From positions 1 to 64,000 of the forward strand of contig JAFQPI010000066.1 in the NCBI GenBank assembly GCA_017411805.1: a stretch of DNA of 64,000 bases, given 5' to 3'. The translations under genes and the position numbers were made by a program. The first letter of the stretch is position 1. Each line of letters begins with the position of its first letter. Source of the stretch: Clostridia bacterium. GTDB lineage: Bacteria > Bacillota > Clostridia > Oscillospirales > CAG-272. A model generated the notes under the pieces. It worked only from the letters and a program-made list of their open reading frames with translations, did no database searches and was not told where the DNA came from. This document shows positions 1 through 58,661 of this stretch, piece by piece.

Positions 1-89
1 CGGAGAGAGAGGGATTCGAACCCTCGTTGGGGTATTAGCCCAAACACGATTTCCAGTCGTGCGCCTTAGACCAGCTCAGCCATCTCTCC
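1..89 (-). tRNA. tRNA-Ser (anticodon GGA)
   Basis: Read on the minus strand, the 7-bp acceptor stem GGAGAGA/TCTCTCC closes the molecule, followed by discriminator G. The anticodon loop CTGGAAA carries GGA, which reads serine UCC/UCU codons. A long variable arm (about 17 nt, around GGGCTAATACCCC) marks it as a class II tRNA, as expected for serine. The T arm has the standard GGTTCGAATCC. The 3' CCA is not visible because the window begins at the discriminator base. Confidence 0.95.
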
Positions 90-8245: not shown

Positions 8246-9853
8246 TTAGTTTTCTCTTCTCTTTGCTATTACAGCAACTCCGATAAGGGAGATGATTGCT
8301 ATCGCAACGAAGATCAGAGCGGAGTCTCCGGTGGGAGTAGAGGAGCCGGGCTCTGTGGTTTCGGGAGCAGGCTCTGTGGTTTCGGGAGCAGGTTCTGTGG
8401 TCTCGGGAGCAGGTTCTGTGGTCTCGGGAGCGGGCTCCGTAGTTTCGGGAGCGGGCTCTGTGGTCTCGGGGGCTTCTTCAGGGATGGAATCCGATGCAGT
8501 GGGGAAGCCGGCAATGTTGCTCTGAGAAGAGGTAATTGCAGAAGTAATAGCATTTGCCATAGGAGCGATAACGTCAGCAGCCAAACCTACCTGACAGCCC
8601 TCCTGACCGTTATTCTTTGTATATCCGTTGATCTTAGCGGCTGTTGTAGAACAATTCTGAGAGTAAAGGGTAGCCTCGTTTTCCTTATGCATTACACCAT
8701 TGATGCCTCCGGCTCTTGAGCCTGCGCCGCCTTCGCTCACGATCTCGCCGGCTCCTACACAGTCAATAACTGCACAATGTGCCTTGTTGATGTAGGAAAT
8801 CATTCCACCTGCGTAAGGATAATAGGTATTTACGCTGCTGTCAACCTTTGAAGTGATCTTGCCTGTATTAAGGCACTTTTCGATCTTGAGATACATGCCG
8901 TTAATACCGCTGGGAGTATAGGTTCCGCCAATAAATCCGCCTACGCTGGCATTGGAGGAATTGGTGAGAGTGCTGTGTCCGGTTACATCACCGTTATTAA
9001 CGCAGTTTAAGAAGGTTGTGTATTCCCCGTTCACCTTTGCAGTAAGCATTCCTACAAAACCTGCAACACTTATATGCTTGCCCTTGTCCTTGTTCGCATT
9101 GTCATTTACAATGGAAGTGATCTTACCGTTGTTAACACAGTTAACAAAAGTATCACGGTTGCCCTGTCCGATAATACCGCCGACACGGCTGGGAGCATTG
9201 GAATTGCTGTAAACATCGCCGTTGTTTACAACATTCTCAAATACGGTACAAAAAGCGTAACCCGCAACACCGCCGACACGACATTCTTTGGTATCGTTTG
9301 AGATAGTAATATCAACGTCTACATTACAATTGGTAACGGTAATGGGATGTGCAAGTGTTGTACTGTCCTTATAGAACCATCCGGAAAGACCGCCAATACC
9401 GTCGCTTGCATTGGATTCGGTAAGAGTAATGCTGCCGGAAACATTCAGGTTAGCAATACCTGCAGAACATGTTGCTCCGGACGCAACGTATCCAAAGAGT
9501 CCGCTTGCTGCGATTTTTTGTGTAATGGAGAGTCCGGAAACAGACTTGCCATATCCGTTGTAAACACCGCTAAACGGATGCGCCGAGGTTCCGATAGGAG
9601 TCCATTCCTTGCCGCCGAGGTCGATATCGGCAGTCTGAACGATGTACTTGCCCTCGTATGTGGTGCCTTCGTTTACCGACTTTGCAAGATATGCAAGGTC
9701 CTCAGCTGTCTCAACTATGTAGGGTGAATCAGCTGTTCCCTCTCCCTTAAGGGATGCGGAAACGGATGTGCCGTCCCAAGCCGCATTGATATTGAATGCG
9801 AAAAGGGAGATCAGCATTGCTGCGAACAGCACGAGTGATAACGCTTTTTTCAT
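8246..9853 (-). CDS. Secreted GLUG-type beta-helix surface protein with Pro/Thr repeat stalk and C-terminal anchor
   Basis: 535 residues. An N-terminal signal peptide ends near FNINA. The body (residues about 35-430) is a series of repeats with the GLUG pattern: SGLFGYVASGA, GGLSGWFY, VGGVAGYAF, VGGIIGQGN, VAGFVGML and VGGFIGGTY, mixed with CVNNGDV/CVNNGKI turns. Such repeats are expected to form a right-handed beta-helix, common in adhesins. Then come five EPAPETT repeats forming an extended stalk. The end, TPTGD followed by a hydrophobic helix and KRREN, resembles a sortase sorting signal with a non-standard motif, or a simple membrane anchor. Start at 9853 has AAAGGAA. It is likely cell-surface exposed; the ligand is unknown. 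Confidence 0.85.
   Translation of the reverse strand: MKKALSLVLFAAMLISLFAFNINAAWDGTSVSASLKGEGTADSPYIVETAEDLAYLAKSVNEGTTYEGKYIVQTADIDLGGKEWTPIGTSAHPFSGVYNGYGKSVSGLSITQKIAASGLFGYVASGATCSAGIANLNVSGSITLTESNASDGIGGLSGWFYKDSTTLAHPITVTNCNVDVDITISNDTKECRVGGVAGYAFCTVFENVVNNGDVYSNSNAPSRVGGIIGQGNRDTFVNCVNNGKITSIVNDNANKDKGKHISVAGFVGMLTAKVNGEYTTFLNCVNNGDVTGHSTLTNSSNASVGGFIGGTYTPSGINGMYLKIEKCLNTGKITSKVDSSVNTYYPYAGGMISYINKAHCAVIDCVGAGEIVSEGGAGSRAGGINGVMHKENEATLYSQNCSTTAAKINGYTKNNGQEGCQVGLAADVIAPMANAITSAITSSQSNIAGFPTASDSIPEEAPETTEPAPETTEPAPETTEPAPETTEPAPETTEPAPETTEPGSSTPTGDSALIFVAIAIISLIGVAVIAKRREN
8345..8480 (-). repeat. 21-nt tandem repeat coding the EPAPETT stalk
   Basis: Five full copies plus partial copies of a 21-nt unit encode Glu-Pro-Ala-Pro-Glu-Thr-Thr. 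Copies differ only at synonymous positions. Such arrays commonly vary in copy number between strains. Confidence 0.9.
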
Positions 9854-50289: not shown

Positions 50290-50859
50290 TTATTTTGTTA
50301 CCAAAGTATGCCCGCAATCGGCACATTTTCCGTTTTCCTTGAGATTCTTGATCCCGCAGACGGGACAACGGACGGCATTTGCGGTATCGGGCGGCAGAAC
50401 TATCGTGTACCTCGAACCATAGAGGTGGAAAACGCGGTCGCCCTTATGATAAAAATAGGGATTCAGGTCGTCGTCTCTGCCCTCGTAAGCCTTGACTGTG
50501 ATCTCCTTGCCGTTATCGAGGCGGATATCAAGATATACGGTGTTTTTGAAATACATATGCTCGAGCGTGGGCTTGACGTAGGACTCGTTATCGACGGTCC
50601 TTTTCACTCTCGCGTCAAGGACCTCGCCGCAATAGGTGCGGTCAATGAGCTTCATCGGCAAGCCCGTCACGGCAAAGGGGATCAGCATAACGACGATGTA
50701 GCAGAGTATACGCATCTGCACGTTTTCCATATTGAATATTCGCTCGCCGAGGAAGAACAGCAAAGCGCCGCACGCCGCAAGCAGTATCGCGCAAGGGATC
50801 GCTCTTTTTAAGATCACTCGGCGGATATGGGATTTCAGATCATTGGGAAGTTCTTTCAT
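50290..50859 (-). CDS. Small membrane protein with C-terminal zinc ribbon
   Basis: 189 residues. Two helices (about 19-37 and 48-68) are followed by a soluble beta-rich domain (YLDIRLDNGKEITVKAYEGRDDD, GDRVFHLYGSRYTIVLP) and a zinc ribbon CPVCGIKNLKENGKCADC. The same plan, two helices, a middle domain ending in GDRVFF..G.KYPL and a C-terminal zinc ribbon, is found in the island gene at 55439, so the two are probably distant paralogues. Function unknown. Confidence 0.75.
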   Translation of the reverse strand: MKELPNDLKSHIRRVILKRAIPCAILLAACGALLFFLGERIFNMENVQMRILCYIVVMLIPFAVTGLPMKLIDRTYCGEVLDARVKRTVDNESYVKPTLEHMYFKNTVYLDIRLDNGKEITVKAYEGRDDDLNPYFYHKGDRVFHLYGSRYTIVLPPDTANAVRCPVCGIKNLKENGKCADCGHTLVTK

Positions 50860-52369: not shown

Positions 52370-53632
52370 TTAAACTCGGAAATAGACGTCATTTTCCTCG
52401 CTGAGCGCACCGACCTCGTTGCGTGTCGTTGCAACGTAGAAGATCACGCGGACACCCTCTGCGGCAAGCGCATCGCGCAGATTCATCATTCTGCGGTCGA
52501 TGTATGACGTTACGATGATCATATTTTCGTTTTCGCGGTAAAGCTCGGGATGGGCAACGATATGGTCGAATACACGGTCGATCGGGGTCGAGATCTTCAT
52601 CCCGAGCATTGCGAGCATTCGCAGGGCGTAGATCATATCGCGCGAGCCGCGGAAGGGTCCGCAGACGCCGACCTTCGCTCCGATCTCGTCATCCGAGACA
52701 GCCTCTCCGCCGAATTCCTTCATATCCTCGGGCGGATAGTTCGAGAAGAATTTCACGGGAACGTCCTCCGCCGCGATCCTGTCAAGTATTGAGGTACAGA
52801 GTGTGATGCAACGCTCGATTGCCGCGGGGTCGGAGGGGACGTCGAATTTTTCGATCTGTCTCGAGGACATATTGAGCAGTAGCGAGAAACGGTGGCGCAC
52901 CGTTTTCTCCTCGATATTGACCATCAGCTTGCCGTGTGCCGCTGTGGATTTCCAGTTGATGCGGCTCATAGGGTCGCTCGTCAGATATTCGCGCGCACCG
53001 CAACGGCGCAAGGGGTCGCTCACGGGGCAGATCTCGGAGATGATATCTCCGCAGAGGTAGCGCGACGAGGTATAATTTCCCGCGAGATCCTCGGGGCGCG
53101 GAAGTACGATCAGGCGGTTTCGCTCGGTATTCGAGAGCTCGATAAGCTTGGAGTGAACGCCGATGCCGAGGATATCGCTTGCGGTTGCAAGGACTCCGCG
53201 TAGCGTGAAGTCACCGCGCTTTTTGCAGGTGAGTCTCCAACGGCGGCGGATGCAGGCGTAGGGACGGAGGACGAAGAGCGACTGGATCGACGAGGTATGC
53301 TTGATCTTGCGCAGGCGTTCGGTCTCGCGCGTAGCCGCGCCCTTCGAGACGGCCATATTCTTCGAGAAGATACCGCCGGGATCGCTCACGGACGACTCAA
53401 GCAGGGTAAACACGATACCGTCGGGCAGATCGGTATCGATCTTGATATATGGCATCGGGAGCGCGCCGTTATTCCTTATCTCCTCATAGAGATAGACGTC
53501 ATCGCCCTCAAAGACCTCGCCCGAGGAGAGCGTCGCGCTGTATTCGATATTTGAAAAGCCTGTTTTCTTATAGACGAAGTACTGAATCAGTACCGCGGCT
53601 ACGACGGCAATGCCGACAGCGATGAAGAGCAT
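52370..53632 (-). CDS. DUF58 domain protein
   Basis: 420 residues. Two short N-terminal hydrophobic stretches, a beta-rich domain, and the DUF58 core with GAREYLTSDPMSRINWKSTAAHGKLMVN, the family signature, followed by a von Willebrand-like segment (FSLLLNMSS, MIIVTSYIDRRMM). DUF58 proteins act with MoxR ATPases, probably in chaperone-like assembly of a membrane complex. AAAGGAG precedes the ATG. Its moxR partner lies about 4 kb upstream, beyond the island, where it would normally be adjacent. Confidence 0.88.
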   Translation of the reverse strand: MLFIAVGIAVVAAVLIQYFVYKKTGFSNIEYSATLSSGEVFEGDDVYLYEEIRNNGALPMPYIKIDTDLPDGIVFTLLESSVSDPGGIFSKNMAVSKGAATRETERLRKIKHTSSIQSLFVLRPYACIRRRWRLTCKKRGDFTLRGVLATASDILGIGVHSKLIELSNTERNRLIVLPRPEDLAGNYTSSRYLCGDIISEICPVSDPLRRCGAREYLTSDPMSRINWKSTAAHGKLMVNIEEKTVRHRFSLLLNMSSRQIEKFDVPSDPAAIERCITLCTSILDRIAAEDVPVKFFSNYPPEDMKEFGGEAVSDDEIGAKVGVCGPFRGSRDMIYALRMLAMLGMKISTPIDRVFDHIVAHPELYRENENMIIVTSYIDRRMMNLRDALAAEGVRVIFYVATTRNEVGALSEENDVYFRV

Positions 53633-53650
53633 AGCGAGACTCCTTTCGGT

Positions 53651-53769
53651 GAGTTAAGGTCGGACTTCGTCCGAGTTAAGATTGCCTTCGGCAAGTTAAG
53701 ATCGCGCAAAGCGCGAGTTAAGATTCGCCCGATGGGCGAAGTTTAAGGAAGATTTTCGCCGAGCGAAAA
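53651..53769 (+). repeat. Hairpin array with GTTAAGAT linkers (left flank of island)
   Basis: Five small palindromes, TCGGACttcGTCCGA, TGCCttcGGCA, CGCGCaaaGCGCG, TCGCCcgatGGGCGA and ATTTTCGCcgaGCGAAAAT, are joined by GTTAAGAT-like linkers. 53673-53743 is almost identical, inverted, to 57572-57640 on the other side of the island. Confidence 0.85.
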
Positions 53770-53780
53770 TCAATTTCAGT

Positions 53781-53946
53781 GGAAAGTTTTGGTCAAGCTT
53801 TTTCAAAAGCTTGTGGGGTCAAGGGGCGAAGCCCTTGCCGACCTCCGCAGAGGTCGGAATGCTCCTTGCGCTTCGAACCGACGGCGTCCCTGCCGGCGGT
53901 TCGGAAGGAGTCAAACCTTCCTTCTCGGAAGGTTTGCGCTCCTTCA
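53781..53946 (-). repeat. Four-hairpin repeat element, copy 4
   Basis: On the minus strand TGAAGGAGC with stem AAACCTTCC/GGAAGGTTT, then GAACCGCCGGC/GCCGTCGGTTC, TTCGAAGCG, GCAAGGGC/GCCCCTTG, CAAGCTTTTgaaAAAGCTTG and an AAAACTTTC tail. It abuts the left hairpin array. Confidence 0.85.
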
Positions 53947-54086
53947 CTCTTTATTATTTCTCGAAACGTGGCAAAATCCCTTATGTCCGCATTTGGGGCA
54001 TCTGAAAAGTCTGTCGATGTCATCCTGAGGCGGCGTCTCTCTTGCAGGGGCTTCGCCCCATAGGTGAGAACATAAGAAAGTCAAAG

Positions 54087-54275
54087 TCTCTCCCTCCACC
54101 GCAAGCGGTCCCCCTCCCTCCTCAGAGGGAGGCAAGATTTGCGAGTGCGAACAAAGCTTTCTTAATAATGAAATTCAAACTTTTTTGCTATTTATATCTC
54201 AATATTACATGTTAGCACAAACTCTTCACCTCCCTCTGAGGAGGGAGGGGGACCACGGAGTGGTGGAGGGAGAGA
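54087..54275. mobile_element. MITE-like element with 46-bp terminal inverted repeats
   Basis: The left end TCTCTCCCTCCACC...(54087-54132) is repeated inverted at 54229-54275, differing only at the tip of an internal hairpin. The 96 nt between are AT-rich. There is no coding capacity for a transposase and no obvious target duplication. The rest of 53947-54425 has no gene. Confidence 0.72.
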
Positions 54276-54425
54276 TATAATATGCTTTAGTTCCCACTTA
54301 TGTGGCGTAGCCCCTGCACCCCGTTATGCGAGTACTAACATTGGTTTGCTATTTATAATTTATAATTTGTAAAGTATTAGTTGAAACAATGTGCTACGGA
54401 CTCGTAATATTATTTAACCTTACAG

Positions 54426-54818
54426 TTATACCGATTCCGTCTTTTCCTTCTTCACTCTTATCGCGCCTCGGATATAGTAAACAAGAAGGATAACCGAGCA
54501 AATGATCGACAGCCAATCACCGATACCGAGCGTTTTGATAGCTATCAGGATCGAATAACGGTCAACAAACACGGAAAGCAGGCAGAAGATCGTCTGCATT
54601 CCCGATATTCCCGCGAGCATCTTTTGTCTTTCGTCATCATCGCGGAATTTCAGTCCCATTATGCCCGCAACCAGCATCAAAACGTGGTTGACAAAGGAAA
54701 TGGTAAACTGCGCGGGTGCGCCCATAGAAGAGCGAAGTAATAAGTAGCCTTCGAAAAAGCCGCCGAATACCGCAAGAACTATCATAGCGATACATAAGTA
54801 TTTGATCAAGTTTTTCAT
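54426..54818 (-). CDS. Small four-helix membrane protein
   Basis: 130 residues with four hydrophobic segments (CIAMIVLAVFGGFFEGYLL, FVNHVLMLVAGIMGL, TIFCLLSVFVDRYSILIA, LSIICSVILLVYYI) and a charged loop KFRDDDERQKM. No family recognised. AAGGTGG precedes the ATG. It is the last gene of the island between DUF58 and moxR, separated from the gene upstream by 42 nt. Confidence 0.7.
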   Translation of the reverse strand: MKNLIKYLCIAMIVLAVFGGFFEGYLLLRSSMGAPAQFTISFVNHVLMLVAGIMGLKFRDDDERQKMLAGISGMQTIFCLLSVFVDRYSILIAIKTLGIGDWLSIICSVILLVYYIRGAIRVKKEKTESV

Positions 54819-54860
54819 AACAATGCCACCTTATTTTTTGATTAATTGTTTATTTGTCCG

Positions 54861-55331
54861 TCATCGGGGATCTTTTTGGATCGCCCTCAGCATCTTCGCC
54901 AGTTCCTTTTCGGATATGACGATATGCTCGCGGACGTACTCGTAAAACTCGTCATCGGTATAGGGCTCGTTTTTGCTTCTCTCAAATTCGCGTACAAGGG
55001 AGCGGACGAGTTTTTTTCTCTTTGAGCCCATGATCAGAGCAACTGTTACGTGAACACAAAGAATAACCAGAAGCTGTATCTTCACTACAACGTCCGCCGC
55101 TGCGTCAAGGTCGATCTGCGAACCGATCTCCGCCAAAGCCATCACGGCAATAATCGCAACGAAAACGGAGTTTACAATACGCATTATGATCAAGAAAGTT
55201 TTGCGAGTTTTATCTTTTAAGACATTATAAGTCAGACGGTTTAAGTCGTCCTCCAAAGCCTCGGTATGCCCCGGCAGAAAATAATATATACCGAAAAACA
55301 GTGAAATTATCAGTTTAAAAAATATTCCCAT
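54861..55331 (-). CDS. Small membrane protein with charged C-terminal tail
   Basis: 156 residues. An N-terminal hydrophobic segment (LIISLFFGIYYFLPG), two central helices (IMRIVNSVFVAIIAVMALAEI, VVKIQLLVILCVHVTVALIMG), then a long charged tail (KKLVRSLVREFERSKNEPYTDDEFYEYV). Not recognised. GAGGAAA precedes the ATG. The preceding gap (55332-55438) shares ATTCCTATTGAACTTCGCCG with the right hairpin array at about 57561. Confidence 0.68.
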   Translation of the reverse strand: MGIFFKLIISLFFGIYYFLPGHTEALEDDLNRLTYNVLKDKTRKTFLIIMRIVNSVFVAIIAVMALAEIGSQIDLDAAADVVVKIQLLVILCVHVTVALIMGSKRKKLVRSLVREFERSKNEPYTDDEFYEYVREHIVISEKELAKMLRAIQKDPR

Positions 55332-55438
55332 GGTGCATTTCCTCTTTAATAGAATTAATTCCTATTGAACTTCGCCGAGGCGAAGATTGGTTGTAATTAT
55401 TGTTTTGATATGGGCAGAAACCTTTATATCCGCAATCA

Positions 55439-56023
55439 TTATATTTTTAGTATATCGGAAAAATCCAATCTGCAGGATTTACATACCGCGTCTTCTGCGG
55501 AAACCGTATGTCCGCACGCGGGGCATGTAAATTCCTCCCCCTCGGTTATCGGGAACTTGAGCGGATATTTCAATCCGCGTACAAAAAAGACTCTGTCGCC
55601 TTCGTCGTAGTGTAAGCCGTCCATAATATAACCCTTTATTTTGTAAGATATCGTGAATTTCTCGCCGCTATCTTTTTCGAAAGTCACCGAACGAACATTT
55701 TCAACATCAAAACGATTGCTCATATAAGCCTTTCTCAACTCGTCGTAAAGTGCGTCGTCAGTCGCGTGCGAAACGCTTGCGTAAAAACTTTTTGAGAGCA
55801 ATATCTTGTGCGCTGAAAACGGAAAAAACGGAACAATACAAAGAAGGAGGATAAGATAATTGCCGAGATCCGCAAATGAACGCTCGGTCGAAATTACAAA
55901 AACAAGAAATGAGGCGATTACAAGTAGAATCCACACTGCTGTCAGGACAAGGGTCCTGTAATACCTTTTATTGCCGAGAGCAATAAAACGCGCTTCAATC
56001 TTCGGATCAAGCTTATTTTTCAT
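55439..56023 (-). CDS. Membrane protein with C-terminal zinc ribbon
   Basis: About 194 residues. Two helices (LVLTAVWILLVIASFLVFVI and YLILLLCIVPFFPF), a middle domain (VRSVTFEKDSGEKFTISYKI, DEGDRVFFVRGLKYPLKFP) and a zinc ribbon CPACGHTVSAEDAVCKSC. It resembles the gene at 50290 in layout. The ATG at 56023 is 8 nt from AAGGAG; one at 56029 makes an ATGA overlap with the upstream gene but is too close to the ribosome site. Function unknown. Confidence 0.72.
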   Translation of the reverse strand: MKNKLDPKIEARFIALGNKRYYRTLVLTAVWILLVIASFLVFVISTERSFADLGNYLILLLCIVPFFPFSAHKILLSKSFYASVSHATDDALYDELRKAYMSNRFDVENVRSVTFEKDSGEKFTISYKIKGYIMDGLHYDEGDRVFFVRGLKYPLKFPITEGEEFTCPACGHTVSAEDAVCKSCRLDFSDILKI

Positions 56024-56025
56024 TT

Positions 56026-56676
56026 TCATTCTCCTTCATTTTTGTTAAAATCATAAAAACGCTTCTTTTCATTCATACAGCCTTCAAGATATTTCATGTG
56101 ACGAATGATCTCTTTTTTGAGTTTTTTGTAAATCAACAGACAATATATACCGAAATATAAGAAATATATGAGCAAAAATACGACGATATCTGCCGCTTCG
56201 GCGTTACCGTTTAGCATAACGGCTTCGAATTTGCCAAGCGGCTCAAGATAAAACGTAGTATACAAATGATAGGTCACCGGAGAAGTGATAACTCCGCATT
56301 TCGTTATTGACAGAGGTATCAGACCGATCAGAAAGCGCGCTATCTCCCCGACACCAACCCATTTTATCATCTTGCGAGTCCAATCGTGAGGGCTATCGGC
56401 AAGCGAAAAATGCTTCGGCACAAAATGCCTTATGTACTGGAACATGAGAAATACGGGGAGCACGGCACAGATAGGAACGTAAATAAATATCGACTGCAAA
56501 ATAAGATACATCGAGTTTGCCGCGAGCTTCGAAATAAAAGAATAAATGCAGGAAACGAGATAATAAGCCATAAAGTTCGCAAGTATCACAATTAATGCAT
56601 ATTTCAGCACATCATAAAGCTCGACTTCTTTTTGGGCATAAAAATCTCTTTCATTTACAAGGTCTTTTTGTGCCAT
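56026..56676 (-). CDS. Multi-helix membrane protein, tandem paralogue B
   Basis: About 216 residues with four helices: YALIVILANFMAYYLVSCIY, LQSIFIYVPICAVLPVFLMF, GEIARFLIGLIPL and ADIVVFLLIYFLYFGIYCLLIY, ending in a basic/acidic tail. The gene upstream encodes a protein with the same motifs (GE..RF.L and a similar last helix), so the two are tandem paralogues. The ATG at 56676 has GAGG 10 nt upstream; a GTG at 56688 is also in frame. Not recognised. Confidence 0.7.
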   Translation of the reverse strand: MAQKDLVNERDFYAQKEVELYDVLKYALIVILANFMAYYLVSCIYSFISKLAANSMYLILQSIFIYVPICAVLPVFLMFQYIRHFVPKHFSLADSPHDWTRKMIKWVGVGEIARFLIGLIPLSITKCGVITSPVTYHLYTTFYLEPLGKFEAVMLNGNAEAADIVVFLLIYFLYFGIYCLLIYKKLKKEIIRHMKYLEGCMNEKKRFYDFNKNEGE

Positions 56677-56684
56677 CCGAAACC

Positions 56685-57314
56685 TCACTTAACGCTATTG
56701 TAATCCATTCTGATTTTGACTTCATTCTTTTTCTTAACTTCGTTTTCTTTCCAAAGCTGTTTGAAAAGCAGGAACAAAACGGCGATAGTGATAGCGAAAT
56801 AAATTAAATAGATCAAGAAGAAAAGCGCATTATCGGCAAAAGTATATCCGGACTCGCGTATTACTGCAAGGCGCTTTTGCGGCATAAGATAAAACCAATC
56901 ATATGCGATATTGGCGGGCATAGCAAAAAATCCGTCAAAAAATCGATAACCGAACATACTTCCGGGTTTGGTCGGTAGAGTTGCCAAGATAAATCTGATT
57001 ACCTCTCCCGGCAAAACCCAAGAGCAAAAGTTTTTGAATATCACCTTGATGCTGTCTGCGTTTTCTGTATCAGAAACAAAAATATCAGGCAGTTTGCTTC
57101 TGAAATATAAGAATGTAACGAGGCAGGTGACTCCAATTCCTATAAGGGCAAAAATTACGGTAAATAGCCTGTAATTTTTGATGATAATATTGCGATCGTT
57201 AGATTTAGAAAAGATCGACAAAATCAAAATAATCGCAACTGATCCCAAGAGGTTGGCTCCTAACATAGTGACGAAATATACGATCTTGTCACGCGCAGTT
57301 ATTTTATTTTTCAT
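56685..57314 (-). CDS. Multi-helix membrane protein, tandem paralogue A
   Basis: About 209 residues. Helices at VYFVTMLGANLLGSVAIILIL, LFTVIFALIGIGVTCLVTFLYF, GEVIRFILATLP and ALFFLIYLIYFAITIAVLFLLF. It matches the downstream protein around VLPGEVIRFILATLP / VGVGEIARFLIGLIP and in the last helix. The frame stays open further upstream through the four-hairpin repeat, but that part looks like translated repeat, so the ATG at 57314 is used; its ribosome site is weak. First gene of the island. Confidence 0.68.
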   Translation of the reverse strand: MKNKITARDKIVYFVTMLGANLLGSVAIILILSIFSKSNDRNIIIKNYRLFTVIFALIGIGVTCLVTFLYFRSKLPDIFVSDTENADSIKVIFKNFCSWVLPGEVIRFILATLPTKPGSMFGYRFFDGFFAMPANIAYDWFYLMPQKRLAVIRESGYTFADNALFFLIYLIYFAITIAVLFLLFKQLWKENEVKKKNEVKIRMDYNSVK

Positions 57315-57381
57315 AGTTCTTGTATAATGCATACACTTAAAGACAATTACAGTAGTATGCAAATTCCTTTCTCTCAGGTGT

Positions 57382-57545
57382 TGAAGGAGCGCAAACATTC
57401 CGCAATGGAATGTTTGACTCCTTCCGAGCCGTCGGCAGGGACGCCGCCGGCTCGAAGCGGATAAACAGTTCGAGGCTCTGCCTCGAGCTCCGCTTAAGAA
57501 ACTTTTTGAAAAAAGTTTCTTAAGGATTTTCAAAAACTTTCGGTC
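57382..57545 (+). repeat. Four-hairpin repeat element, copy 3
   Basis: TGAAGGAGC with stem AAACATTCC/GGAATGTTT, GAGCCGTCGGC/GCCGCCGGCTC, CTCGAAGCG, CGAGGCtctGCCTCG, TTAAGAAACTTTTTgaaAAAAGTTTCTTAA and a CAAAAACTTTC tail. Orientation is opposite to the copy on the left flank. Confidence 0.87.
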
Positions 57546-57571
57546 TTTTTTAATAAAACTGATTCCTATTG

Positions 57572-57680
57572 AACTTCGCCGCAGGCGAATCTTAACTCGC
57601 GCTTTGCGCGATCTTAACTTGCCGCAGGCAATCTTAACTCACGCGAAGCGTGATCTTAACTCGGTCGCTTCAGCGACCGA
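57572..57680 (-). repeat. Hairpin array with GTTAAGAT linkers (right flank of island)
   Basis: Five palindromes, TTCGCCgcaGGCGAA, CGCGCtttGCGCG, TGCCgcaGGCA, ACGCgaaGCGT and CGGTCGCttcaGCGACCG, are joined by ATCTTAAC linkers (GTTAAGAT on the minus strand). The last hairpin contains the moxR stop codon. It is the inverted counterpart of the array at 53651. Confidence 0.87.
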
Positions 57681-58620
57681 TGGGTGCTTCAACCGAATCA
57701 AGCACAAATTCGATCAGCTTTTCGTTTGTATCCGACATTCTGACGGTGCTCTGTGTGCGCGAGATGATCCTATGCGCGAGAACGGGTACGGCTACGCGGC
57801 GTACGTCATCGGGGAGACAATAGTCGCGTCCGTCGCAAGCAGCGGCGATTCTTGCGGCATTCAGAAGCGCAAGTGTGCCACGGGGGCTGACACCCATCGA
57901 AATGCGGTTATTGTTTCTCGTTGCGTCAACGATTCGGAGGATATAATCCTTGACGGGCTCGGTCACGGTCACGCCGCGGCAAGCCGCGTTCGCCGCGACG
58001 ATATCCGCGGAAGTGCAAACGGCGCCCAGTGAATCAAGCGGAACTTGCGAGCCGTGGATATCCATCATCGACATCTCGCTGTCGCGATCGGGGTAGCCGA
58101 GTGCGAGCTTCATGAAGAAACGGTCGGTCTGTGCCTCGGGAAGCGGGAAGGTACCCTGCGACTCGATCGGGTTCTGCGTTGCGATGACAAAGAAGGTGTC
58201 GGCAAGCTTATACGTCACGCCGTCAACGGTAGTCTGACGCTCTCCCATACATTCAAGAAGAGCCGACTGGGTTCGCGGGGTGGTGCGGTTGATCTCGTCG
58301 GCAATAAGAATATTCGTGAAAACGGGACCCGGACGGAATACGAAATCCGAGGTCTTCTGGTCAAAGAAATTGATACCCGTGATGTCGGAGGGCAGAAGGT
58401 CGGGGGTGAACTGAATTCTCTTCACGTCGCCCGAGATCGACTTCGCCAGCGCGCGTGCGAGCGTGGTCTTGCCCGTGCCGGGGATGTCGTCGAGAAGGAC
58501 GTGTCCGCCCGCGATCAGCGAGATAACGATCAGCTCGATCTCGCGCTTCTTGCCGAATATAACGCGGCTAACGTTTTCTGTAATATTTGCGGAAAGACTC
58601 GCAACAGAGGTAATATCCAT
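57670..58620 (-). CDS. MoxR family AAA+ ATPase
   Basis: 316 residues. Walker A LLDDIPGTGKTTLARAL, the FTPDLLPSDITGINFFD segment, Walker B NILIADEINRTTPRTQSALLECM, sensor ATQNPIESQGTFPLPEAQTDRFFMKL and the late ISMGVSPRGTLALLNAARIAA. MoxR ATPases remodel or load cofactors into a membrane complex built with DUF58 proteins. The ATG at 58620 follows AAAGGA. It has a perfect promoter. Its last codons lie inside a repeat hairpin, and its usual partner gene is beyond the island. Confidence 0.92.
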   Translation of the reverse strand: MDITSVASLSANITENVSRVIFGKKREIELIVISLIAGGHVLLDDIPGTGKTTLARALAKSISGDVKRIQFTPDLLPSDITGINFFDQKTSDFVFRPGPVFTNILIADEINRTTPRTQSALLECMGERQTTVDGVTYKLADTFFVIATQNPIESQGTFPLPEAQTDRFFMKLALGYPDRDSEMSMMDIHGSQVPLDSLGAVCTSADIVAANAACRGVTVTEPVKDYILRIVDATRNNNRISMGVSPRGTLALLNAARIAAACDGRDYCLPDDVRRVAVPVLAHRIISRTQSTVRMSDTNEKLIEFVLDSVEAPIGR

Positions 58621-58661
58621 TTTATTTAATCCTTTCAAGGTATTAAAATTTCGCTATTCAA

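Follow-up and report, generated by a model that had tools for sequence, protein, structure and literature searches.

What is one to make of an operon in which five small membrane-protein genes, enclosed by inverted repeats, part moxR from its DUF58-like partner? We examined this question in 64,000 nucleotides of a Clostridia bacterium (GCA_017411805.1, contig JAFQPI010000066.1, positions 1 to 64,000; this whole stretch is called the window), for which an earlier note had proposed a cargo-carrying insertion or an inversion hot spot built from non-coding repeats. The repeats are composites of a hairpin array, whose hairpins are separated by the heptamer GTTAAGA, and a four-hairpin element (4HP). 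The proposal mostly failed: the composite is dispersed and mostly points outward from genes, the insert genes run in one direction, and facing composites are the usual layout of an intergenic space with two copies, not the ends of an island. With the island reading mostly wrong, what is left is a repeat at gene boundaries that shows concerted change of an unusual kind: arrays are often retained at orthologous gene ends, but the heptamer differs by species, being near-uniform inside most of them. Thirteen genomes of the genus were compared, among them the window's own (G000) and three related species in which the junction is also split (G001, G005 and G010).

Hairpin arrays at the edges of the insert

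Read toward the insert, each edge consists of a hairpin array and then a 4HP. On the left, an array of four hairpins with GTTAAGA spacers, and GTTAAGG at the gene end (53651..53745, plus strand), abuts the 5′ end of the DUF58-like gene and points away from it; orthologues with other heptamers were found in G005, G001, G010 and L070 (a near relative of G010). It is followed by the hairpin GATTTTCGC and a 4HP with its tail toward the insert (53746..53951, plus strand; nhmmer match 53779-53951), orthologous in G005, with 85% identity over 267 nt for this left 4HP region. The right 4HP, also with its tail toward the insert, lies at 57375..57566 (minus strand), and one is found at the equivalent position after moxR in G005 and G001. 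The right array (57575..57680, minus strand) has five hairpins with GTTAAGA spacers, and its first hairpin contains the moxR stop codon (TGA), which the earlier note had correctly placed inside the array. This array is common to G000 and G010 (L133) and absent from G001 and G005.

The two edges match as inverted pairs at 53651-53729 / 57584-57662 (79 nt, 90%) and at 53869-53946 / 57382-57459 (78 nt, 88%). The pair of about 70 bp from which an inverted composite had been recognised earlier is real as well (93%, with 3 mismatches and 1 gap); the presence of hairpin arrays at both edges stands too, with the spacer corrected to the heptamer GTTAAGA between hairpins that start with T and end with A. 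Against an expectation of 2.27, the motif GTTAAGAT was counted 9 times in the window, a number reached by none of 100 shuffles. Part of the array end recurs within the insert (55340..55385, no strand assigned; 87% to 57544-57581 over 38 nt).

RNA folding of the minus strand gave z scores of -4.6 for the left array, -3.05 for the right array and -7.7 for most of the right 4HP, and the left array folds on that strand as a simple string of hairpins with the heptamers unpaired between them. At the edges no known structured RNA matched at the Rfam gathering score, and a scan of the whole window returned only a tRNA (1-89, minus strand; 58 bits in Rfam, and none reported there by ARAGORN). An Rfam match to MIR4208 at 54072-54288, from the region 53600-57700, was rejected, its score being far under gathering; it sits on a pyrimidine-rich inverted repeat. 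Beside the moxR-DUF58 arrays no array-associated protein gene was seen.

Array architecture and species heptamers

The array unit is a hairpin of about 11-21 nt with T first and A last; arrays mostly hold 3-5 of these with 7-nt spacers, and one G005 stretch has a run of about eleven. Seven nucleotides is the top class among distances between successive hairpins in all six genomes examined. The array detector demands pairing and at least three hairpins, and self-pairing was also measured without that demand: intervals of 11-19 nt between two species heptamers, no palindrome being required, pair with themselves in 205 of 221 cases (64/69 in G000, with 44 distinct hairpins among the 69, and 66/74, 44/46 and 31/32), against at most 1% when shuffled. 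Arrays without a recognised heptamer class were dropped, leaving 122 of 126 over four species (31 of 33 in G000, 26 of 28 in G010).

The species heptamers are GTTAAGA in G000, ATGGTTA in G005 and RTGATAA in G001, with TCGATAT in other genera and one congener (G009). Pairs of GTTAAGA number 26 in G000, 14 in G010, 1 in G005 and 0 in G001; pairs of TGGTTA, 46 in G005, 2 in G000 and 0 in both G001 and G010; pairs of TGATAA, 64 in G001, 2 in G010, 1 in G005 and 0 in G000; and TGATGA has 5 each in G000, G001 and G010 and 1 in G005. The nine other congeners have 0 or 1 paired heptamers per pattern. Reversed controls were empty apart from a single TGATGA match in each of G000 and G009, and a few of the heptamer-pair matches are visibly no hairpins. 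In 712 kb of G001 (five large contigs taken whole and picked by size, some with array matches and others from the DUF58 search), GTGATAA occupies 33 of 58 spacers and GTTAAGG one. Arrays of mixed heptamers occur, for example L149 and L150 of G005, as would be expected of intermediates. We also observed in G000 (L081, 4129-4221, from G000:C24) a lone chain with CGATAT-type spacers, possibly an immigrant of the family-wide TCGATAT element.

Dispersal and orientation

The 351-bp left composite has at least 48 matches in its own genome (40 of 96 candidates scored), where the array pattern has 26 and its reversed control 0; a 4HP profile found 53 copies in 387 kb sampled around composite and array matches. 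Counts of whole composites and whole 4HPs are lower bounds, only part of the candidates having been scored, and dropping 4HP matches that cover fewer than 100 model positions reduced 53 to 47 in one tally and 99 to 86 in another.

The stretches behind the main gene-outward and orthology counts were fetched for composite or heptamer matches. In this heptamer-drawn sample of four species 108 of 117 array heads and 38 of 113 tails have a gene no more than 150 bp away, and the head is nearer to the gene than the tail in 96 of 108. Arrays adjoin 3′ ends 70 times and 5′ ends 38 times (7 and 9 in the five G001 contigs). The whole-contig counts of G001 are smaller but agree (gene within 150 bp of the head 16/21, of the tail 7/21, head nearer 15/21). 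Since the elements mostly point away from the gene, two opposite copies in one intergenic space face each other, and they do so in all 22 intervals holding both orientations in the four species and in 4/4 of the G001 contigs. The 22 lie between neighbouring genes and hold no cargo. In such genomes inverted repeats around a gene cluster are the usual intergenic layout, and by themselves no sign of a mobile island.

A role of the repeats as synteny breakpoints was considered and given up: conserved adjacency was 0.29-0.50 against 0.70 in a first count, a difference largely lost on length matching. With intergenic spaces of at least 150 bp, 78/194 element-bearing and 54/117 element-free pairs are conserved (p = 0.34), and with at least 50 bp p = 0.08. 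Two subsets speak for a breakpoint role, which thus keeps some probability, namely intervals under 50 bp (7/37 element-bearing pairs conserved against 311/376) and convergent pairs of at least 150 bp (4/34 with an element, 6/20 without). Several contigs of these metagenome-assembled genomes were seen to end close to arrays or 4HPs (e.g. G000:C19, G000:C17, G005:C24 and G010:C3), so the repeats may break assemblies and leave local gene order uncertain.

Positions kept and heptamers changed

Gene ends that carry an array in G000 were matched in the five G001 contigs; an array was there at 6 of 13, compared with 4 of 150 ends without an array in G000 (p = 1.3e-5), and all six kept arrays carry the heptamers of G001. 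Through the gene-side flank 60 array pairs were matched, of which 56 among the four main species were used for means. The mean spacer distance, out of 7, is 3.15 for orthologous arrays of different species, close to the 3.31 of unrelated arrays of different species, and 1.48 for unrelated arrays of one genome. The hairpins are partly kept despite different dominant heptamers: ordered stem sharing is 0.291 against 0.171 expected, a value reached in 0 of 2000 permutations (50 pairs). The array before DUF58 is an example, with three of four stems matching between G001 and G005 and spacers of RTGATAA in the one and RTGGTTA in the other.

The junction in related genomes

A DUF58 protein of at least 53% identity was found in 10 of the 13 genus genomes, the window's own counted. 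In six more distant congeners (G004, G006, G007, G008, G011 and G012; DUF58 53-60%) it is nearly adjacent to moxR, with a gap of about 8-140 bp, the G004 junction being judged from a contig end; the earlier assumption that the two genes are usually neighbours holds in 6/6 of these. The intact junction that the earlier note would have sought in close relatives was seen in these more distant ones, the junction being split in G000, G001 and G005 and also, across contig breaks in the insert, in G010 and L070, which are 97% alike beside the array.

The window's gap is 4037 bp (4.04 kb rather than the 3.9 kb first given), and the five genes in it, which we call g1 to g5, do split moxR from DUF58 as claimed. 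In G005 (DUF58 87%) the gap is 2288 bp and holds orthologues of g2 (74%) and g1 (58%), a zinc-ribbon gene and one further gene; in G001 (DUF58 87%) it is 1545 bp, with a relative of g4 and g5 (22-26%) and another gene. In these three species, the ones with the whole junction readable, the insert genes run in the operon direction. In G030, of another genus, a gene likewise sits at this junction, and the 11.7 kb read there contain no GTTAAGAT.

The earlier note had set against its own reading any relatives that carry the five genes at this place without the repeats. G005 answers to this in part, having g2 and g1 and no GTTAAGAT within the 20 kb read at the locus; it is not free of repeats, as it keeps the 4HP on both sides of the junction and the left array with another heptamer. 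On the DUF58 side G001 has the array alone. The insert and the whole 4HP were found in the same four genus genomes. Since relatives share edge elements and insert, both are largely inherited by descent while gene content turns over, and the GTTAAGA arrays are a later or changing layer on this shared ground. Comparison of the sequences shows a moxR-DUF58 space, opened in an ancestor of the window species and at least three related species, that holds a changing set of predicted small membrane-protein genes. Inside the G010 insert (L057, from G010:C132, about 8250-8350, minus strand), the start of an array's terminal hairpin was seen by eye to run into a 4HP tail, as if two elements had recombined.

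The TCGATAT form beyond the genus

A generic detector that allowed spacers of 6, 7, 8 and 9 nt, run on stretches of other genomes, gave arrays only at 7 nt, apart from one run of N; five are in G026 and two in L077. Stretches of G029 (105 kb), G011 (59 kb), G006, G019, G024, G008 and others were read and contained no arrays. The whole 4HP was found in 4 of the 13 genus genomes, and its head part has matches in several other genera.

A triple YCGATAT pattern is present in 38 of 196 genomes of the family and 27 of 71 genera, with one control match; at least five matches are present in 18 genomes, and some of the single ones look like chance occurrences in coding sequence. The congener G009 has 37. 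Twenty TCGATAT stretches were chosen for their arrays, most with both orientations. Several such elements, often two facing arrays in about 190-230 bp, recur across genera at up to 87-93% with no match outside (G215:C7/G192:C30, 90% over 227 nt; G212:C4/G215:C36, 93% over 190 nt), and within G212 they reach 95% over 223 nt; other pairs are only 71-85% alike. As this cross-genus identity ends at the element edge, the TCGATAT form acts like an element that is mobile or spreads horizontally. The pair G009:C44/G212:C2 also matches beyond the element (682 and 1470 nt), so that this copy may be inherited or may have moved with its neighbours.

Interpretation

Taken as a whole, these observations are probably best explained by hairpin arrays dispersed at gene boundaries together with a trans-acting reader of the species heptamer. 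The heptamer would serve as a recognition site that the hairpins on either side keep open, and array copies throughout a genome would follow the specificity of one putative partner, for which a DNA-binding protein, a single-strand-processing protein or a small RNA are candidates; uniformity might arise by recombinational rewriting of copies or by selection against mismatched ones. The 7-nt spacing, the near-uniform heptamer and the varying, paired hairpins suggest that the heptamer is read and that the hairpins keep it apart, and since the arrays are oriented by the gene edge rather than by the transcript, we favour a reader that acts on DNA. The arrays are then probably bacterial extragenic palindromic repeats of a new type, their spacer read by this putative partner. 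More tentatively, and with somewhat less than even confidence, we suggest a new class of gene-boundary element, with self-pairing hairpins of otherwise free sequence that display a heptamer of fixed length, for which the specificity of a trans-acting factor switches at speciation and then rewrites or selects spacers genome-wide at the old positions, a concerted evolution of dispersed sites. Dozens of dispersed sites holding their place while the spacer changes together would, if true, mean that something in the cell reads the spacer; the close species with different heptamers and the TCGATAT genera are natural replicates in which the reader might be found as a gene or RNA that changes along with it.

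Several observations weigh against this explanation. No partner gene or RNA was found. Of the 13 array sites of G000, seven lack one in G001, which implies fast turnover; the six kept ones fall into four neighbourhoods, and two of the six belong to adjacent similar genes, so that they are not fully independent. G010 is mixed, with GTTAAGA and ATGATGA and a within-genome spacer distance of 2.28 (0.98-1.60 elsewhere), and minor heptamers persist in G000 and G005. The head is not the nearer end in 12 of 108 arrays. Nor do pairs face each other throughout the family, for in all four stretches of G150 and G015 (two other genera), with the heptamer read in the same sense, they point outward. In the minimum-energy fold of the right array the middle hairpins merge into a longer stem and form no simple string. 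Array pairs were sampled mostly through heptamer searches, which favours typical spacers, and gene calls throughout are open reading frame (ORF) heuristics.

The arrays could instead be RNA elements (mRNA stabilisers, terminators or protein-binding structures of 5′ or 3′ untranslated regions) with the heptamer read as RNA. Their strong folds would fit this, as would the heptamers left unpaired in the left array and the position of arrays near stop codons and, in the case of DUF58, near the ribosome-binding site. The transcript, however, has the heptamer at 3′ ends and its reverse complement at 5′ ends (70 against 38 arrays, and 7 against 9), and one RNA-binding specificity would not see both kinds; we consider this explanation unlikely. 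Rather unlikely, too, is that they are non-autonomous elements resembling miniature inverted-repeat transposable elements (MITEs) or REPINs (doublets of repetitive extragenic palindromes, REPs), with an unseen transposase that recognises heptamer and hairpin, a heptamer that reflects the active transposase family and gene ends as tolerated targets. This is compatible with the trans-acting reader, and the chances we give the two overlap. It draws support from the sharply bounded TCGATAT elements shared across genera and from the right array after moxR, present in G000 and G010 and not in G001 and G005; at that array, though, comparison of G000 with G001 and G005 by eye revealed no target duplication (one site). 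Fresh insertion would not be expected to give conserved positions at which the heptamer is exchanged and the hairpins are in part retained, and the G009:C44/G212:C2 match runs on into the flanks. The Y1 transposase typical of a REP-associated tyrosine transposase (RAYT; PF01797) was found in 3 of the 13 genus genomes, G005, G010 and G012, the last with one heptamer match that is no hairpin, and was absent from the array-rich G000 and G001 (incomplete genomes, 72-86% complete); RAYT seems an unlikely mobiliser, its presence in these genomes not tracking the arrays.

That the repeats bound a mobile or invertible island which brought the five genes into the operon we consider highly improbable. 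The co-occurrence of insert and whole 4HP in four genomes could be read in that sense, as could the differing insert genes, the fused element junction in the G010 insert seen by eye and the partial array end in that of G000. Yet facing pairs stand without cargo in the 22 sampled intervals and 4 more in the G001 contigs, the insert proteins match no transposase or integrase, and their genes are co-directional in three species; the closest G000 relative of the zinc-ribbon gene in the G005 insert lies downstream of the same operon (50290), synteny is not clearly more disrupted at elements once lengths are matched, and G030 has its gene in the junction without GTTAAGAT. In its sequence and in the comparison with other species, the segment bears no sign of a transposon and nothing suggests inversion.

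Among known systems, REPs and REPINs with RAYT come close. PMC3733652 describes GTAG and CGTC tag families with an unpaired tag at the hairpin base, and short palindromes with many intergenic copies, some types being species-specific, that often lie close together in opposite orientation and often downstream of genes, much as here. They differ in that the palindrome of a REP family is conserved, whereas here the hairpin sequence varies and the constant part is the 7-nt spacer; the dominant spacers GTTAAGA, ATGGTTA, RTGATAA and ATGATGA lack a GTAG or CGTC tag; and heptamers here change at kept positions, with no RAYT found in the incomplete genomes G000 and G001. Direct repeats of the heptamer TAACTGA are described in PMC4679880 from Beggiatoaceae, Cyanobacteria and Bacteroidetes; no particular RNA structure is predicted for them, and in Beggiatoa most have the forward orientation ahead of a start codon. 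They share with the present arrays a genome-favoured heptamer in intergenic sets near genes, whereas here a self-pairing hairpin lies between the heptamers and the heptamer differs among close species. TIGR arrays (PMC12045711, where the term 'stem-loop array' is used) likewise consist of repeated units; the present genomes have short arrays, dozens of them, beside their genes.

The TCGATAT form is short, non-coding, dispersed across genera and near-identical at unrelated sites (several elements, in related genera), in which it resembles MITEs. These are short dispersed non-coding elements with terminal repeats and a target duplication as their hallmark. For no GTTAAGA array were near-identical unrelated copies or such a terminal-repeat and target-duplication structure seen. 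We found no recognisable description of heptamer-spaced hairpin arrays in the open-licence PMC literature, which does not show their absence from print.

Genes of the insert and its surroundings

In the window moxR (57670..58638, minus strand) encodes an AAA_3 ATPase (Pfam, 1.5e-61). The DUF58-like gene (52370..53632, minus strand) matches PF01882 at E 0.05, below the cut-off; four of six members of this DUF58-like family match it, at best 1.5e-4. The order moxR then DUF58 in one direction corresponds to the operon layout, with the window's own DUF58 match being weak. The five ORFs between them (130, 156, 196, 220 and about 209 aa) lie on the operon strand, with 2-4 transmembrane-like (TM-like) windows each. 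Of the two with orthologues in the G005 insert, g1 (54426..54818, minus strand; 130 aa) has four TM-like windows and g2 (54861..55331, minus strand; 156 aa) has three. The protein of g3 (55439..56029, minus strand; 196 aa) has two, with a C-terminal zinc ribbon that scores under the Pfam cut-off. It is a more distant paralogue of a 189-aa zinc-ribbon membrane protein encoded downstream of the operon at 50290-50859, the gene whose relative in G005, at 70% identity, lies inside the insert. Next come g4 (56026..56688, minus strand; 220 aa, four TM-like windows) and g5 (56685..57314, minus strand; about 209 aa counted from ATG), with similarities of 22% and 26% to a G001 insert gene; a longer TTG start of g5 would reach into the right 4HP. 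In line with the earlier note, no transposase, and no integrase, was matched among the five insert proteins with Pfam, PADLOC and PHROGs. Searched for defence or phage cargo, these proteins gave 0 PADLOC matches and one weak PHROGs match of unknown function.

Two minor features lie in the left part of the insert. A short remnant at 53935..54023 (minus strand) is similar, by eye, to the C-terminal zinc ribbon that ends a gene whose frame is open at that place in G005 and G010, and a perfect 26-bp inverted repeat (GGTCCCCCTCCCTCCTCAGAGGGAGG) at 54107-54132 / 54229-54254, its arms 96 bp apart, is perhaps a further type of repeat.

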